From Clostridia bacterium (GTDB taxonomy: Bacteria; Bacillota; Clostridia; Christensenellales; UBA1242): a stretch of DNA of 59,816 nt. The DNA is taken from positions 1 to 59,816 of the forward strand of contig JAFVWN010000041.1 in the NCBI GenBank assembly GCA_017501645.1, in the 5' to 3' direction. Numbering within the stretch: position 1 is the first letter of the stretch; every line of letters starts with the position of its first letter. Below are positions 12,271-24,779 of this stretch, one piece after another. The notes beneath the pieces are model-generated. The model was not told the DNA's origin and made no database searches. It saw only the letters and a program-made list of their open reading frames with translations. The position numbers and the translations under genes were made by a program.

Positions 12271-12894
12271 TTAATAATTTACAACAATAAAACTTTTAAT
12301 AATTAGTGGCAATATAAAGCTGTGCAAAACACAAATAACAACAACAAATAGAACACATAACAAAACTTTCAGTAAATACCCATTTTCTTTGAAACTGCCA
12401 AAAAAATTAAGACCAAAAGACCTACAAGTATTCGCCCTCTCTATACCACAAATATTAAAAATAACCATTATTAATATATTCAATAAGTTTATTGGAATCA
12501 TAAATAATATAACATTTATTATTCCAATTACTCCATATAAAGAAACTAAAGCACCACAAGACAAAACAAATAAAACCGTTTGATAGCAAATAAAAATATA
12601 ATTTATAATTGAAGAATATACAGAAAGACTAAACACAAAAATAATTAAAAGACAAAGTAGCATATCTGCCAGTCTAGAATAAAATATTTCTGTATAACTT
12701 GCTGTTCCATTAATAAAATCAAACATTATATTGTCAGTGGCTGTCAATAATGAAGTGTATTTATAGTTTGTTAAAGCCAAATATATACCAACAGCAACTC
12801 CAACAATAATACTTATACAAGAAATAATATAATATATTACATTTTTTCTTAAATGCTCTATTATTCTTTCTTTAATAAAAAAACTATTTACCAT
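12271..12894 (-). CDS. Five-helix membrane protein, probable SpoIIM-like
   Basis: Encodes 207 residues with about five membrane helices (residues about 18-42, 70-93, 97-120, 122-147, 175-200). The N-terminus IKERIIEHLRKNVIYYIIS followed by a GVAVGIYLAL helix resembles SpoIIM, part of the SpoIIDMP engulfment machine. In Clostridium the order recN-spoIVB-spo0A-spoIIM is common, and this gene fills the spoIIM position. Sequence identity is too weak to be certain. No clear ribosome binding site precedes ATG 12894. Confidence 0.6.
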   Translation of the reverse strand: MVNSFFIKERIIEHLRKNVIYYIISCISIIVGVAVGIYLALTNYKYTSLLTATDNIMFDFINGTASYTEIFYSRLADMLLCLLIIFVFSLSVYSSIINYIFICYQTVLFVLSCGALVSLYGVIGIINVILFMIPINLLNILIMVIFNICGIERANTCRSFGLNFFGSFKENGYLLKVLLCVLFVVVICVLHSFILPLIIKSFIVVNY

Positions 12895-12933: not shown

Positions 12934-13695
12934 TTAAATTCTTGAATATAACTCTTCCCCAAACTCTGCATCCGTAAGCAACTTGCCTAGAATCATTTTG
13001 ATTAAAATCGAGTTTGTCAAATCATACTTGACAAATTCTTTAACACTTTTATTTTGGTTTGTATCCGGAAGTCTTTGCACCTCTTTTATTGCATTTGCCA
13101 AAGCCGTTCTCATTGCTCTTTCTACTGCACACAATTTTATCCCATAGCAGTCACCAATCTCTTGATAAATATCCATTATATTAATATGCTTTGGGTAATT
13201 AAAAAATGTTATCGTTATTGCATCTACAAAATAAGTAAAACCGCTATTTTTAGGCGAAAACTTTAGCAGTACTAAAAACCCGTGAACAGCACTTTTTACT
13301 TTTTGAATACTATATGCCGGCTTTTGCATTATCTTAGACTTGAACATAAGCAACAGCTCTGCAAGTTTTAAATCAAAATTAGAAAGTTCTGTTTTATCAA
13401 TTAAATAATATTTTTTAGATTTCTCTATTTGTTTATTCCCAACAACTATTATGTTCTTACAATAATTATCATAAATCAAATTAACTAATCTTTCAAACCT
13501 TATCAAATCAGTTCCATCATCTTCAAGTATTAAAACATTTACAATATTTTCATTAAAATGTTTAAACAATTCATCTATATCGCCAGAAACCATCAAACAT
13601 TCATAACCCAATATTTCAAGTTGCTTCATATCTATATTTTTAGGAACTACACCCTCGTTTTGACTATACACACAAGCCTTTAATTTTACTATCAT
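12934..13695 (-). CDS. Spo0A-like sporulation regulator with degenerate receiver domain
   Basis: Encodes 253 residues. The C-terminal half (about 130-245) matches the Spo0A DNA-binding domain: a long helical start (VKSAVHGFLVLLKF), then DIYQEIGDCYGIKLCAVERAMRTALANA, which contains the helix-turn-helix. It lies between spoIVB and the SpoIIM-like gene, the standard spo0A position. The N-terminal half keeps the length and beta-alpha spacing of a CheY-like receiver but not its chemistry. The acidic pair is Ser11-Gln12, the phospho-Asp position is Glu58 (VNVLILEDD), and the Thr and Lys switch residues are not recognisable. It should bind DNA but not accept phosphate in the usual way. Confidence 0.85.
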   Translation of the reverse strand: MIVKLKACVYSQNEGVVPKNIDMKQLEILGYECLMVSGDIDELFKHFNENIVNVLILEDDGTDLIRFERLVNLIYDNYCKNIIVVGNKQIEKSKKYYLIDKTELSNFDLKLAELLLMFKSKIMQKPAYSIQKVKSAVHGFLVLLKFSPKNSGFTYFVDAITITFFNYPKHINIMDIYQEIGDCYGIKLCAVERAMRTALANAIKEVQRLPDTNQNKSVKEFVKYDLTNSILIKMILGKLLTDAEFGEELYSRI

Positions 13696-13760
13696 TGTAT
13701 TTCTTCCTTTCTAAATAACATAAGAAAAGTTTACCACAATGCACCACAAAAATCAAACAA

Positions 13761-13802: not shown

Positions 13803-14990
13803 TTAATTATCAATCATCCAATCAATATAAACACCAAAGCCTTTTGTTGGGTCCGCAACAAAAACATGAGTAACCGCACCTATTAATTTACCATTTTGAA
13901 TAATAGGACTACCGCTCATTCCCTGAACAATCCCACCAGTTTTAGAAATTAATTCTTCATCCGTCACCCTTATAACCATACTTTTATTGCTACTTTTTGT
14001 TTGATAAGAAAGCTTGATTATTTCGATATCATACTCTTCAGGAACACCACCATCTATCGTACATAAAATTTTAGCTTTTCCAGTCTTAGCAGAATCTCTA
14101 AAACCAACTTCTATTGGTTCAACTCCTAGTTTATTTATGTAATCCTCATTCATTTTTCCGTAAACACCATAATTGTTATTATTATCAAGAGTTCCAGCCT
14201 TAACGCCACTTCTTAAAAACAACCCTCTAAGTTCACCGGGTTGTCCCCTAAGCCCCTTATTATAACCAACAATATTACATTTATAGACACTACCTTTTGA
14301 AACCGGCATTATCTTTCCTGTATCTATATCACAAACTGGATGTCCAAGTGCTCCAAACCTAAAGTTATCTTCTCTTACATATGTTAAAGTTCCTACACCC
14401 GCAGCATTATCTCTTACCCATAAGCCAAGCCTATATGTTTTTGTTGCAGATTCTTTTACGGGAATAAACTTTTCATTTATTTCTTGTCCACCTCTTTTTA
14501 TAACTGCCGTTATTTCTTCCCCTGGATTTGCTTCGGGATTGATTAAATCATTAAAATGATTTGCACTTTTTATAACCTCACCATTGATACTATATAAAAT
14601 ATCCCCAACTTTTATGTTTTTACCCTCTGTCGGTTTTACTTCCCCCCACTCTGTTACAACCTTACCAATGGCAACAATAACAACACCATCACATTCCATT
14701 GTAAACCCAAGTGGATAACCGCCCGGATACACCATAATCTTTCGATTATCTTTTGAAACATTTTTCTTTTTCTGGCCACCAAAAAAATCACGAATTAAAT
14801 CCTTTAACTCTGGCATTTTTTGTGCCGATACTTGAGCTTGAACTGTACTGCACTCAATAATTTTTACATCATTATTAAAAAAGCCTAATATACATAAACT
14901 TTGAACAAAACAGCAAAAAGCAACAATTATTATTACTAGTGCTTTCACAAACTTATTCCTACTTCCAAAAGAAAAAACCACTCTATTCAT
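13803..14990 (-). CDS. spoIVB: SpoIVB serine peptidase
   Basis: Encodes 395 residues. An N-terminal membrane anchor (about 15-38) is followed by a PDZ domain (about 100-170). The SpoIVB peptidase domain has the catalytic His in FGALGHPV (His217) and the nucleophile in GMSGSPI (about Ser361). In Bacillus it is secreted from the forespore and cleaves SpoIVFA to start sigma-K activation. It lies 36 bases after recN and before the Spo0A-like gene, as is usual. Confidence 0.95.
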   Translation of the reverse strand: MNRVVFSFGSRNKFVKALVIIIVAFCCFVQSLCILGFFNNDVKIIECSTVQAQVSAQKMPELKDLIRDFFGGQKKKNVSKDNRKIMVYPGGYPLGFTMECDGVVIVAIGKVVTEWGEVKPTEGKNIKVGDILYSINGEVIKSANHFNDLINPEANPGEEITAVIKRGGQEINEKFIPVKESATKTYRLGLWVRDNAAGVGTLTYVREDNFRFGALGHPVCDIDTGKIMPVSKGSVYKCNIVGYNKGLRGQPGELRGLFLRSGVKAGTLDNNNNYGVYGKMNEDYINKLGVEPIEVGFRDSAKTGKAKILCTIDGGVPEEYDIEIIKLSYQTKSSNKSMVIRVTDEELISKTGGIVQGMSGSPIIQNGKLIGAVTHVFVADPTKGFGVYIDWMIDN

Positions 14991-15026
14991 AAGAGTAGTT
15001 TTTGTTATTTACAAATATATATGTAT

Positions 15027-20178: not shown

Positions 20179-20652
20179 TTATTCAACAGGAATAATTTTA
20201 ACATTTGTTGCAAGCACTTTTGCTTCTCTTACTAAAATAGACAAAATTTTTGCAACCTCATTACTATTAAGCCCTGCAGAAGTCTTTACAAACACATTCA
20301 TATTATCATCAGTTGAAGTAACTATAACATCTTCATAGCCAGTCGCAGCAATCAAACCTTCTAACGCAAGCTCACTTTCCATTTTAGAAGCAATCTTCGC
20401 TTTTTCGGCTTTAGCGTTCGCAACTTCAGTAGCATCAGTAGATGACGCTATAATTGAATCATAAATCTCAATTTGATAATTTCGTGATGCCAACTTATCT
20501 TCTCTACAAGATGTAAAAAAATTTGCAGATGTTGTTTGTGTCACATCTAAAGAACTATCACTTTTATTAAGAGCAATATTCAAATACCCAGTCACAACCA
20601 ACAATACAACCATTGACACTAAAACAAATATTTTTTTCTTTTTGCTTAACAT
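20179..20652 (-). CDS. spoIIIAH: Stage III sporulation protein AH
   Basis: Encodes 157 residues from ATG 20652 behind AAGGAGGGTGG. One N-terminal membrane helix (about 7-25) is followed by an extracytoplasmic part with the family motif SANFFTSCREDKLASRNYQI. The C-terminal YscJ-like ring-building domain (ALEGLIAATGYEDVIVTSTD) comes last. SpoIIIAH on the mother-cell side binds SpoIIQ across the intermembrane space to form the feeding channel. It is the last gene of the spoIIIA operon. Confidence 0.95.
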   Translation of the reverse strand: MLSKKKKIFVLVSMVVLLVVTGYLNIALNKSDSSLDVTQTTSANFFTSCREDKLASRNYQIEIYDSIIASSTDATEVANAKAEKAKIASKMESELALEGLIAATGYEDVIVTSTDDNMNVFVKTSAGLNSNEVAKILSILVREAKVLATNVKIIPVE

Positions 20653-20686
20653 AGACCCACCCTCCTTAAAATACAAAACTTTCATA

Positions 20687-21241
20687 TTATTTTCCCTCCA
20701 TCACTTCAACCTTAGAGACCTCAACAGATAATACACTAGACACAACATTGATTAAATTTGCTTTAAACTTTATATCTTTAGCACCACTAGCAACAATTAA
20801 AACTCCTGTGATTTTTGGTAGAAATTCTACAACAACCACTGGCGTACTCACACTTCCATTTTTAGACATTACTATCTCTGTTTTTATTGACTTTACTGTA
20901 GGTTTACCACTATCCAACTTTTCATAGTACTCTGTTTGAGATTCTTCAAGATACTTTATTGTTGGGCTAGCATCTACCATCACAAAAACATCAACATTCC
21001 CGATACCTTTTATTCCCGCTAGTACATTAATAAGTCTATTCTCAACCACTTCACAATATTCCATAGCAGATATGTTTTTATTGTCAACTTTTGTCACTTT
21101 ATTCTTATTACTTTCAAAAGTGAAAGAACTTGCAAATATAAGAACAATACAGACCGCCAACAATACAATAAATATCGTTTTTAACAGTTTTTTATTTTTA
21201 AATATTGGCATTTTTAAAAAGCTAGATATTTTACTTAACAC
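20687..21241 (-). CDS. spoIIIAG: Stage III sporulation protein AG
   Basis: Encodes about 184 residues from GTG 21241, eight bases after GAGG; TTG 21247 is an alternative. One membrane helix (about 23-43) precedes the ring-forming domain (CEVVENRLINVLAGIKGIGN, then VDVFVMVDAS). The C-terminus GVLIVASGAKDIKFKANLIN matches the family. SpoIIIAG forms a large secretin-like ring in the engulfment channel. Confidence 0.94.
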   Translation of the reverse strand: MLSKISSFLKMPIFKNKKLLKTIFIVLLAVCIVLIFASSFTFESNKNKVTKVDNKNISAMEYCEVVENRLINVLAGIKGIGNVDVFVMVDASPTIKYLEESQTEYYEKLDSGKPTVKSIKTEIVMSKNGSVSTPVVVVEFLPKITGVLIVASGAKDIKFKANLINVVSSVLSVEVSKVEVMEGK

Positions 21242-21300
21242 AACCAAAACCTCGTTTTTTATATTATTATTCAGTGCAATTTTATAGTTTTTGCAGTTTT

Positions 21301-21474
21301 TTATAATAAAAAATCAAATATTGCATTACATATTGGTGTCACTAAAGCCGAAAATAAATAAACCCCAACAACACATAAACAAAACTTTTTCATAGCTCCT
21401 TCAGGGATTATTACACCAACAAAAATTTCAAGAAAAACACAAAAAATCAAATTTGAAACTAATCCTTTTAACAT
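21301..21474 (-). CDS. spoIIIAF: Stage III sporulation protein AF, minimal form
   Basis: Encodes only 57 residues. The start is ATG 21474, eight bases after the spoIIIAE stop and behind TAGGTGTG. The stop is TAA at 21301. The product begins MLKGLVSNLIFCVFLEIFVG and ends TPICNAIFDFLL, two membrane helices that match the N-terminal pair of SpoIIIAF. It lies exactly between spoIIIAE and spoIIIAG. Usual SpoIIIAF proteins have about 170-200 residues with a soluble ring-like domain after the helices; that domain is missing and no remnant follows. Confidence 0.85.
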   Translation of the reverse strand: MLKGLVSNLIFCVFLEIFVGVIIPEGAMKKFCLCVVGVYLFSALVTPICNAIFDFLL

Positions 21475-21482
21475 CTTCACAC

Positions 21483-22742
21483 CTACACAAAACTAGACAC
21501 AGAACACATTGTTAAAAATATAGTAAAAAAATACATTAATGAAACACCCACTAAAACCACCGTTAAAAGTTTAAAACTTTTTGCAACCCCATAAAGCAAA
21601 GACGAACTTTTTTTATCACCAACAATATCTATAACACCCGCAACAAATTTCAAACCAAGTTCAATAACCGCAACAGACAATATTGGAGAAATTATACTAG
21701 CAAAAAGCATTAATATCCCAGTAAAACCTGTTGCATTTTTTACCAAAAGCCCACCAGCCTTAACAACCTGAAAACCATCACTTATATAACCACCCAACAT
21801 TGGCACATAATTTTTTATTGCATACTTAGTAGCTTTTATACTTATCCCATCACTCGTCCCGGCCGTTAAACCATTTAAAGTCATAAATGCCATATAAACA
21901 GTGAAGATTATACCTATTACCCATTTAAAAAGTGAAGATATAAATCCATTAATTTTTTCAAAACTATTATTTTTTGAAAAACAGCCAACTATTGATAAAA
22001 CAAAACCAATAACAAATAATGGAAACAATACATAAATAAATACTGTCGATACAGAATTTGTTAGAAAAGCAAACATTGGAGAGTATGCTTTAACAGAAAT
22101 AGCCCCTCCCATAATAGACATAAGTGACAACAATACTGGAAATATAGCATTCATTTGTTTTTGTAAGTCAACTAAAGATTGCTTTGCTTCGCTTATTACT
22201 GAGGATGAGATTTTTGCTAAAATAATAGAAACAACAGCCAGACATATATATCTAATAATATCTCCAACCCCAGAAATGCTCGAGGGCTTAAAATTATTAA
22301 AGACACCAAAAAGCAATACAATAGCCAAAATTACCAACAGAGGAAAGAGCATTTCTTTAAGTAAGGAAACCGCCCCGCCGACAAAAATTTTAAGCATACC
22401 ACCCAAAGAAACCGTTTCTTCACCTTTGATTATCTTTGAAACATAACCTTTAAAGGTTTCTCCTCCAAATAGAGAAAAATCAACATCAACAGCTTCTAAA
22501 ACTTCTTCAAGCTCGCTAAAATCTATATCCTCTAAAACACTATCTGTAGCACTTTCCAATTCTTTTTCATAGTCAACGACCTCATTGTTTTCTGCATTTA
22601 CATAATTTTCTTTTTTATTATTCATAAAATTAAAAAATGCAAAACAAATTGACGCAATTGTAAAAAACAATAGTAATTTGCTTAAATTATAGATAATATT
22701 GCAGTTGTTAGGTTTTTTATTATTGGAAATGCAGATATACAT
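21483..22742 (-). CDS. spoIIIAE: Stage III sporulation protein AE
   Basis: Encodes up to 419 residues. A hydrophobic signal segment (about 20-40) is followed by an acidic external stretch and about eight membrane helices. The family signature VDLQKQMNAIFPVLLSLMSI with GGAISVKAYSPMFAFL is clear. It is a membrane component of the SpoIIIA channel. ATG 22742 overlaps spoIIIAD by 61 bases; no other good start lies nearer, so the exact N-terminus is uncertain. Confidence 0.94.
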   Translation of the reverse strand: MYICISNNKKPNNCNIIYNLSKLLLFFTIASICFAFFNFMNNKKENYVNAENNEVVDYEKELESATDSVLEDIDFSELEEVLEAVDVDFSLFGGETFKGYVSKIIKGEETVSLGGMLKIFVGGAVSLLKEMLFPLLVILAIVLLFGVFNNFKPSSISGVGDIIRYICLAVVSIILAKISSSVISEAKQSLVDLQKQMNAIFPVLLSLMSIMGGAISVKAYSPMFAFLTNSVSTVFIYVLFPLFVIGFVLSIVGCFSKNNSFEKINGFISSLFKWVIGIIFTVYMAFMTLNGLTAGTSDGISIKATKYAIKNYVPMLGGYISDGFQVVKAGGLLVKNATGFTGILMLFASIISPILSVAVIELGLKFVAGVIDIVGDKKSSSLLYGVAKSFKLLTVVLVGVSLMYFFTIFLTMCSVSSFV

Positions 22743-23062
22743 ATAGCAACTTTACCCCCTAAAACAACCTTGTTTGAAATTGACTTATTACCACAATCCT
22801 CAGCCAAATCACTAGTAAATTCTGTTATATACCCAATCCCTATAACTTTCAAAATTGGAGAAATTATATCTGTTTTTACACCAGCATAATTACCGAAATT
22901 AGCAATCTCTTCTATAAACAGTTTTCCCTCGTTAAGCACAAGCATAAAAATTATTAAACCACCACACACATTTGCAAGTAGTGAGAATTCCGGTTTATAT
23001 TGTTTCAATACTATATTAATTAAAAGGGTACATACCCCAATCCCCAAAATCTTTATTAGCAT
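22682..23062 (-). CDS. spoIIIAD: Stage III sporulation protein AD
   Basis: Encodes 126 residues with about four membrane helices, including the family segments LLINIVLKQYKPEFSLLANV and IGYITEFTSDLAEDCGNKSI. It is a small membrane part of the SpoIIIA channel. The start at 23062 follows AAGGGTGAAG. Confidence 0.95.
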   Translation of the reverse strand: MLIKILGIGVCTLLINIVLKQYKPEFSLLANVCGGLIIFMLVLNEGKLFIEEIANFGNYAGVKTDIISPILKVIGIGYITEFTSDLAEDCGNKSISNKVVLGGKVAICISAFPIIKNLTTAILSII

Positions 23063-23073
23063 AACTTCACCCT

Positions 23074-23271
23074 TTAATAAAGATTAAATAAATTCTTTAC
23101 AGTATCAAACAAACCACTCACCATATTCAAAACCATTATTAAAACCATCACTAATCCAGCCAATGTCGACAAGGTTGCGATTTCGCTTTTGCCTTGATGT
23201 TGTAAAATCTGCCCCACAACAGCAGTTAAAATTCCAATACCTGCTATTTTAAAAATAATATCTATATCCAT
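23074..23271 (-). CDS. spoIIIAC: Stage III sporulation protein AC
   Basis: Encodes 65 residues with two membrane helices. It has the family pattern IFKIAGIGILTAVVGQILQH and GKSEIATLSTLAGLVMVLIM. The length is typical. It lies between spoIIIAB and spoIIIAD as usual. Confidence 0.95.
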   Translation of the reverse strand: MDIDIIFKIAGIGILTAVVGQILQHQGKSEIATLSTLAGLVMVLIMVLNMVSGLFDTVKNLFNLY

Positions 23272-23278
23272 TATTCAC

Positions 23279-23767
23279 CTATGCTATTAATATACAAACC
23301 ACCACTCCCACCGCTAAACTAAGTTTATAAATCAACCCCTCATTTGTTCTTCTAATACTTTCAACTTCATTAATTTTTCTCTTTAATTCTTCTTGATATT
23401 TTTCCAACTGTCCTATTTCTTCACTAACCCCTTTCGTTCCAAAGCCTCTAAAAAATACCTCAATATTTCTTCTTTCTTCTCTTTTCAAAAAATAGAGAAT
23501 TTTATTGTCCAGACATTTCTTTTCATTTTGCATTAAATAATTTTTTATTTCTTGAAACTCCTTCAAAAACTCAACTTGTTTTTCTTCAAAAAATTTGTCA
23601 AACAATTCAGTTAGTTTTATTTGACTAAACTCAATTTCTGTTTTTGCATAACCAACAAATAATTTTAATTCTTTATAAAACTTATCTCTTGTAATAAATA
23701 ATTTTACCAGTCCTCTGCCAACAACTGAAGATAAAACAATTATTAAAACACAACCGACATAAACCAT
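23279..23767 (-). CDS. spoIIIAB: Stage III sporulation protein AB
   Basis: Encodes 162 residues from ATG 23767, which sits six to eight bases after AGGTG; GTG 23776 would be 9 bases longer. The N- and C-terminal membrane helices flank a cytoplasmic helical bundle resembling GspF. The family motifs ELKLFVGYAKTEIEFSQIKL and FFRGFGTKGVSEEIGQLEKY are visible. It is thought to act with the SpoIIIAA ATPase. Confidence 0.93.
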   Translation of the reverse strand: MVYVGCVLIIVLSSVVGRGLVKLFITRDKFYKELKLFVGYAKTEIEFSQIKLTELFDKFFEEKQVEFLKEFQEIKNYLMQNEKKCLDNKILYFLKREERRNIEVFFRGFGTKGVSEEIGQLEKYQEELKRKINEVESIRRTNEGLIYKLSLAVGVVVCILIA

Positions 23768-23776
23768 AGCAAACAC

Positions 23777-24688
23777 CTAAAAATATATACACTTATGATT
23801 TTCATCATAGACACTTATACACTCACCAACTTTGTTTTTGTTAGAAAGTAAGAAATACCGTTCAAAACATCTTGCTGTTAATATTTTATTTATCCCTTGT
23901 CTTTCTTTTAACTCACTGATACTATTTGCGTGAATAGAGGCTATTACTTTAACCCCGGAATTTACTGCATTTATACAAGCGTCTACATCCGCCTCACTCA
24001 TAAGCTCGTCTGTAATTATGATATCTGGCCTTAAAACCCTAATCCCATTACTAAACGCAAACTCCTTACTTGCCCCTGAAACAATATCTGTATACATTCC
24101 TACATCCAACATTGGCTCTCCATCTAAAGTTGACGCCAATTCAAACCGTTCGTCTACAAGCAGTGTATTAAAAACTTTATCCTCTATCCCTGATATTTTT
24201 CTTGCGATATCTCTTAGATATGTTGTCTTCCCTGCACCTGGAGGTGAAATTATCAAGGAGTTTTTTATTCCATAATCTTTGCTATAAATATAATTAAAAA
24301 CAAATGCGGAACAATCTTTAACCTCGTGCGGTACTCTTATGTTAATTGAATTGATATTCTTTATTGTTGTGGGCATAAACTTATCACTGTTAACACTTTC
24401 TCCTGCTATACCCAGTCTTATTCCTCCTCTTGCAGTAATAAACCCCTGTTTAATTTGGTTATTATAAGCATACAATGAATTTTCTGTCGCTCTTTTCAAA
24501 ACATACTCTATCATTTCTTTTGTTACAAAAACAGGCTCTCCACCACTCATCCTTTTCAAAACACAATTTTTTCCTTGGTAATTTATAACAACGGGTGCGT
24601 TTCTTCTTAGCCTTATCTCTTGTATTTTTTTCATATCGTAATTTATCAATGTGTTGTTTATTTCTTGTGGCAACAATCTATAAATCAT
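23777..24688 (-). CDS. spoIIIAA: Stage III sporulation protein AA, secretion-type ATPase
   Basis: Encodes 303 residues from ATG 24688 behind GGAGGTGTTGTTTA; a longer frame upstream has no support. Walker A is PPGAGKTTYLRDIAR and a Walker B-like region is PDIIITDELMSEAD. It resembles type II/IV secretion ATPases and energises or assembles the SpoIIIA channel from the mother-cell side. It is the first gene of spoIIIAA-AH, which follows efp as in Bacillus. Confidence 0.95.
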   Translation of the reverse strand: MIYRLLPQEINNTLINYDMKKIQEIRLRRNAPVVINYQGKNCVLKRMSGGEPVFVTKEMIEYVLKRATENSLYAYNNQIKQGFITARGGIRLGIAGESVNSDKFMPTTIKNINSINIRVPHEVKDCSAFVFNYIYSKDYGIKNSLIISPPGAGKTTYLRDIARKISGIEDKVFNTLLVDERFELASTLDGEPMLDVGMYTDIVSGASKEFAFSNGIRVLRPDIIITDELMSEADVDACINAVNSGVKVIASIHANSISELKERQGINKILTARCFERYFLLSNKNKVGECISVYDENHKCIYF

Positions 24689-24749
24689 TAAACAACACCT
24701 CCGTTTATAAAAGATATTAACAGGCTTTATTTTATATGTTTTTTTGCAT

Positions 24750-24779
24750 AAAAAAAATATGCCACTTAATGACATATTT
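24750..24779 (-). terminator. Terminator after efp
   Basis: On the minus strand ATATGTCA-TTAAG-TGGCATAT (with a G-U pair) is followed by TTTTTTTTA. It separates efp from spoIIIAA, so the spoIIIA operon needs its own, probably sporulation-specific, promoter. Confidence 0.75.

Follow-up and report, generated by a model that had tools for sequence, protein, structure and literature searches.

In the textbook view, Spo0A is a switch driven by kinases, and in clostridia orphan histidine kinases are generally regarded as feeding it (PMC11210211). Among the atypical response regulators, BldM and WhiI are functional as heterodimers in the Streptomyces sporulation programme (PMC4125116), and a review of pseudo-receivers (PMC12632262) contains no Spo0A-type case and never names Spo0A. 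The window analysed here, i.e. the whole stretch of 59,816 nucleotides, lies on contig C38 in an assembly of 1.46 Mb and carries on its minus strand a gene that an initial annotation, made from the letters of the DNA, had called the spo0A of this genome. That annotation had described a receiver domain stripped of its phosphorylation residues, had taken Glu58 as a possible mimic of phosphorylation and had suggested that sporulation entry might not use a phosphorelay in this organism. The gene, designated as spo0A2 below, was compared with the canonical Spo0A proteins of the same genome, genus, family and order, and with the described regulators that carry non-catalytic receivers.

Results

Spo0A2 and its receiver

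The features of the locus are listed in Table 1. The start codon of spo0A2 is ATG, preceded by the ribosome-binding site AGGAAG, and the GC content of the gene is 29%. About 24 stops would be expected per 253 random codons at this GC content (P of no stop, 8e-12), and six same-genus genomes have an intact homologue at the same place; the intact ORF is not explained by chance.

Table 1. Coordinates of spo0A2, its domains and the neighbouring features in the window
Feature	Position	Strand	Basis or remark
spoIIM-like gene, 39 bp downstream of spo0A2	12271..12894	(-)	TIGR02831, 28.8 bits, below cut-off
spo0A2	12934..13695	(-)	253-aa Spo0A paralogue, receiver degenerate
C-terminal Spo0A DNA-binding domain, aa 130-243	12967..13308	(-)	Pfam Spo0A_C; 1fc3/1lq1 matches
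N-terminal pseudo-receiver, aa 1-123	13327..13695	(-)	hhalign; AF2 model; structural match to receivers
Ribosome-binding site AGGAAG of spo0A2	13703..13708	(-)	sequence
Putative sigma-A-type extended -10 promoter of spo0A2, TTTG-N17-TGG-TAAACT	13728..13757	(-)	conserved 6/7
spoIVB, upstream neighbour, marks the ancestral spo0A site	13803..14990	(-)	TIGR02860, 391 bits
Terminator-like hairpin before spoIVB	14973..15003	(-)	sequence
Divergent spoIIIA cluster	20179..24775	(-)	all matches under NCBIfam cut-offs

The C-terminus of Spo0A2 was matched by Pfam Spo0A_C (PF08769) at 34.7 bits (cut-off 25), which bears out the DNA-binding domain proposed by the initial annotation. Pfam Response_reg (PF00072) matched none of the seven same-genus members, Spo0A2 of the window included, and the Spo0A equivalog model TIGR02875 gave no match to Spo0A2 at E<=1. 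By profile-profile comparison, Spo0A2 was aligned with the canonical Spo0A of the order over 198 columns at 14% identity (probability 96.7), with Ser11 and Gln12 in place of the acidic pair and Glu58 in place of the phospho-accepting Asp, exactly as had been aligned by eye. According to our reading of the same alignment, the switch Ser/Thr and Lys, which the initial annotation could not recognise either, are both absent, and the protein is about 8 residues short between β4 and β5.

The AlphaFold2 model of Spo0A2, built with seven sequences, had a mean pLDDT of 83.8. In this model β4 (82-86) runs to β5 (97-100) without α4, giving a receiver-like (βα)5 fold minus α4 that is joined to a helical domain. 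The best receiver match of the former was 2qxy (Z 13.5); for the latter, the matches were 1fc3, the trans-activation domain of Spo0A (Z 16.1), and 1lq1, its complex with DNA (Z 15.9). Shifted Asp and Lys residues that might have rescued the receiver were rejected by the profile alignment together with the model. As judged from the sequence, Spo0A2 has lost the phosphorylation site and α4 and still has the folds of a receiver and of the Spo0A DNA-binding domain.

The presence of Glu at the phospho-Asp position of the window protein had led to the proposal that Spo0A2 is locked on, with Glu58 mimicking phospho-Asp and the Spo0A targets driven constitutively. However, position 58 reads E/D/E/N/N/D/D across the seven members of the genus, and phospho-mimicry by Glu58 is unlikely because Glu is not conserved. 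The change of Asp to Glu has been reported to be insufficient by itself in Spo0A (PMC4395418), the recognition helix is changed (see below) and a normal Spo0A is encoded in the same genome, so that a locked-on Spo0A2 is considered to be highly improbable.

The canonical copy and the origin of the pair

The search of the genome with Spo0A_C detected a second protein, on contig C40, at 141.6 bits versus 36.8 bits for the window copy. This protein (Spo0A1) is 260 aa in length, has Asp11, Glu12, Asp57, Ser85 and Lys107, i.e. all catalytic residues, and was matched by TIGR02875 at 243 bits (cut-off 200). The view that the genome has no other spo0A was rejected on this ground, a second canonical spo0A being what the initial annotation had itself named as speaking against its reading; the window gene occupies the ancestral spo0A locus by position, but the canonical Spo0A of the genome is the one on contig C40. 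Contamination was also rejected as the source of the latter, which clusters with its six same-genus counterparts and has valS upstream in all seven genomes, valS being presumed from its own sequence rather than named by a family search.

Both copies are present in all six same-genus genomes, the divergent one always beside spoIVB, and most genera of the family have one canonical copy and one divergent or shortened copy. Against the canonical profile, the spoIVB-adjacent protein reached 270-345 bits in ordinary genomes of Bacillus, Clostridium and Paenibacillus, where it is canonical, and fell to 20-115 bits near the window clade. In the maximum-likelihood tree, all canonical non-syntenic copies found in the family and the order formed one clade (100/99). 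This clade was separate from other Firmicutes and also from the syntenic copies, still intact, of G036 and G057; the degenerate syntenic copies were poorly placed with their long branches, and the tree was used only to show that the clade of canonical non-syntenic copies has a single origin. From the clade structure and the profile scores we infer that a duplication, or a single acquisition, predates the spread of the order and that the copy left behind at the old site degenerated afterwards.

Just a DNA-binding domain of 111-118 aa lies beside spoIVB in the order relatives G042, G043 and G044, which points to this domain as the part that selection retains. As read from these proteins, the trend at the old site is from an intact receiver through a degenerate one to none, with the DNA-binding domain kept. 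These relatives also bear on the idea that the pseudo-receiver acts as a sensor, binding a ligand or a partner and thereby gating DNA binding, as in JadR1 or BldM-WhiI. A conserved receiver fold whose active site is gone would suit such a sensor, and mechanisms of this kind are known for pseudo-receivers (PMC12632262, PMC4125116); against it, neither a ligand pocket nor a partner was identified for Spo0A2, and the domain has been dropped altogether by some relatives in the order, so that an essential sensing role is not general. This idea is regarded as having a minor probability.

Further Spo0A_C genes were observed in single genomes. G010 has two spoIVB loci (L084, G010:C9 and L083, G010:C26), each followed by a Spo0A_C remnant or a divergent copy. 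In the family member G018 (L110, G018:C16 40000-59900), three Spo0A_C proteins are located within 14 kb, one canonical and two consisting of the DNA-binding domain (114-117 aa), which suggests repeated local duplication. The spoIVB locus of G018 has the same sequence as that of Candidatus Caccopulliclostridium gallistercoris, a bacterium assigned by its authors to GTDB family UBA1242, order 4C28d-15 (PMC8035907). G050 has five Spo0A_C genes in total and shows two adjoining proteins with the DNA-binding domain only (L130, G050:C6 52000-58500).

Gene order, promoter and DNA-binding domain

The neighbours of spo0A2 are those named in the initial annotation, with a strong match for spoIVB and a weak one for spoIIM (Table 1). 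The gene order spoIVB-spo0A2-spoIIM was constant and on the same strand in 7/7 same-genus genomes, with gaps of 26-115 bp between spoIVB and spo0A2 and 26-39 bp between spo0A2 and spoIIM, and no terminator-like hairpin was found between the three genes. Such an arrangement would agree with Spo0A2 being a late compartment-specific DNA-binding protein, sharing a transcript with its two neighbours in either the forespore or the mother cell. We consider this unlikely, in view of the conserved putative sigma-A-type promoter directly upstream of spo0A2 and of the divergent full-length copy that persists in G007 and G026 despite the lack of a detectable spoIVB in both.

The strict form of this promoter (TTTG-N17-TGN-TANNNT) was present between spoIVB and spo0A2 in 6/7 same-genus genomes and the looser form (TTG-N20-TANNNT) in 7/7. 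The strict form occurred in 0.5-2% of shuffled sequences. The seven genomes are relatives rather than independent trials, but the intergenic bases around the motif are poorly conserved. A vegetative-type promoter, as predicted here, fits a modulator and also a gene unlinked to sporulation. Within the genus, exact TGTCGAA boxes numbered 4 in the 300-bp regions upstream of the seven canonical spo0A genes and none in the 250-bp regions upstream of the seven spo0A2 genes, and no 0A boxes were found upstream of spoIIAA in the window genome. In the spoIIIA cluster of the window, spoIIIAH was not recognised.

Within the genus, the identity of the DNA-binding domain was 94% for canonical Spo0A and 41% for Spo0A2, and those of the Spo0A2 receiver and SpoIVB were 34% and 59%, respectively; by these values, Spo0A2 is evolving fast. 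The divergent copy was undetected in some family genomes, e.g. G015 and G027, from which it follows that Spo0A2 is not indispensable. Both the fast divergence and these absences could be expected of a decaying relic without function, the ORF of which is open only for want of time. The intact ORF, the position and the promoter are, however, kept across the genus as judged from the seven sequences, each of which would contain the above number of stops if random; moreover, the conserved residues of Spo0A2 are common to the whole genus, and most genera of the family still have a copy. A relic is considered to be quite improbable.

The recognition helix of Spo0A2 reads VERAMRT in the window protein and VEKSMRT in most relatives, compared with the canonical VERAIRH. 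Glu213, Arg214, Arg217 and His218 contact DNA in the 1LQ1 complex of Spo0A. In this numbering, the Spo0A2 homologues keep the equivalents of Glu213 and Arg217, the equivalent of Arg214 is Lys in 6/7 and that of His218 is Thr, Ser or Leu. Because the equivalents of Arg214 and His218 are altered, the binding specificity of Spo0A2 has probably changed, and its DNA binding could be weak or lost.

Histidine kinases and receivers in the family

The family set consisted of 36 genomes (G000-G035), and kinases were searched for by using the HisKA, HATPase_c and HATPase_c_5 profiles, with PF02518 and PF14501 as the HATPase families. Two receivers are encoded in the window genome (G000): one is that of the canonical Spo0A, and the other is the partner of its sole histidine kinase. 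The stand-alone Spo0F-like receiver, a survey for which had been proposed in the initial annotation, was not found in this genome. The only two-component system of the window genome is a BceRS-like cassette of response regulator, histidine kinase and ABC transporter (L237, G000:C33 153-2598), which was possibly acquired; a HisKA counterpart of its kinase was found in none of the six same-genus genomes.

HisKA was detected in only 6/36 family genomes (G000, G018, G022, G031, G032 and G035), all of which also have non-Spo0A receivers. In the other 30, no histidine kinase was found by the HisKA, HATPase_c and HATPase_c_5 profiles: the HATPase_c matches, assigned by length and not annotated singly, had the lengths of GyrB/ParE, MutL or SpoIIAB or were fragments, and HATPase_c_5 added no kinase. 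Near-complete genomes are among these 30, namely G027 (3 contigs, 100%), G007 (9 contigs, 99%) and G016 (100%). Canonical Spo0A is the sole receiver in 27 of these 30 genomes, the exceptions being G009 and G020 without any receiver and G008 with two canonical Spo0A copies. Of the 34 canonical Spo0A copies in the family, 30 retain the phospho-Asp, whereas Ser/Thr and Lys are present in every one. Replacement of the phospho-Asp was by Glu in G011, G025 and G034 and by Asn in G012. Sporulation is predicted for the family from its genes, with spoIVA in 36/36 genomes and spoIVB in 33; spoIIAB-sigF and the spoIIIA cluster are present in the window genome.

Judging from these searches, most relatives in the family appear to have lost all the histidine kinases by which Spo0A would normally be switched on. 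Since clostridial Spo0A is generally regarded as fed by orphan kinases (PMC11210211), a kinase-free family would be a real exception, and the suggestion of an unusual sporulation entry gains support from this side rather than from the window gene. We tentatively propose, at somewhat less than even confidence, that endospore entry occurs without a histidine kinase in the 0.8-1.5 Mb Clostridia around Candidatus Caccopulliclostridium, where Spo0A as the only receiver would depend on a non-kinase phosphate donor or on control of its level, together with a phosphorylation-independent Spo0A2 encoded at the old locus.

Discussion

On balance, and with modest confidence, Spo0A2 is taken to be a phosphorylation-independent, partly re-targeted paralogue that modulates canonical Spo0A and is not itself the switch for sporulation entry, its regulatory role being one that we infer. 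The duplication would be older than the diversification of the order, with Spo0A2 having stayed at the ancestral spoIVB-spoIIM site. Spo0A1, encoded beside valS, still has its catalytic receiver and an almost unchanged helix of the type that reads the 0A box, and is taken as the master regulator. Spo0A2 would be made from its own conserved sigma-A-type promoter and would bind DNA without phosphorylation, its activity being set by the amount made and possibly also by a bound partner. With its altered recognition helix it may recognise sites that form an overlapping or a modified set, and it may tune the output of Spo0A1 via competition or mixed dimers; for mixed dimers of Spo0A1 and Spo0A2, the BldM-WhiI heterodimers (PMC4125116) are a working precedent.

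A spo0A duplicate at the textbook position in a gut bacterium has shed its switch, and most genomes of its family keep the phosphorylation site of Spo0A with no detectable histidine kinase. The question of what activates Spo0A without a kinase becomes directly testable in these organisms. The locus is also a warning that gene order alone or Spo0A_C alone can mislabel spo0A in metagenome annotation and in the prediction of sporulation. In the literature searched on Spo0A paralogues, outside which most subscription journals lay, no description of such a pattern was found.

Compared with Spo0A itself (TIGR02875; 1LQ1, 1FC3), Spo0A2 is alike in the two-domain layout, the Spo0A_C fold (Z 16), the position behind spoIVB and the equivalents of Glu213 and Arg217. 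It differs in having no phosphorylation site, no α4 and an altered helix in which the equivalent of His218 is lost. It also goes unmatched by TIGR02875, lacks an upstream 0A box and shares its genome with a canonical Spo0A. HP1043, ChxR, BldM, WhiI and JadR1 resemble Spo0A2 in placing a non-catalytic receiver fold ahead of a DNA-binding domain, but their DNA-binding domains are different from that of Spo0A2, the receiver of which is too diverged for Pfam Response_reg. The stand-alone Spo0A_C proteins of the same order (110-150 aa) share the Spo0A_C domain with Spo0A2, and those of G042-G044 share its position next to spoIVB as well; whereas these proteins have wholly lost the receiver, Spo0A2 retains a degenerate one.
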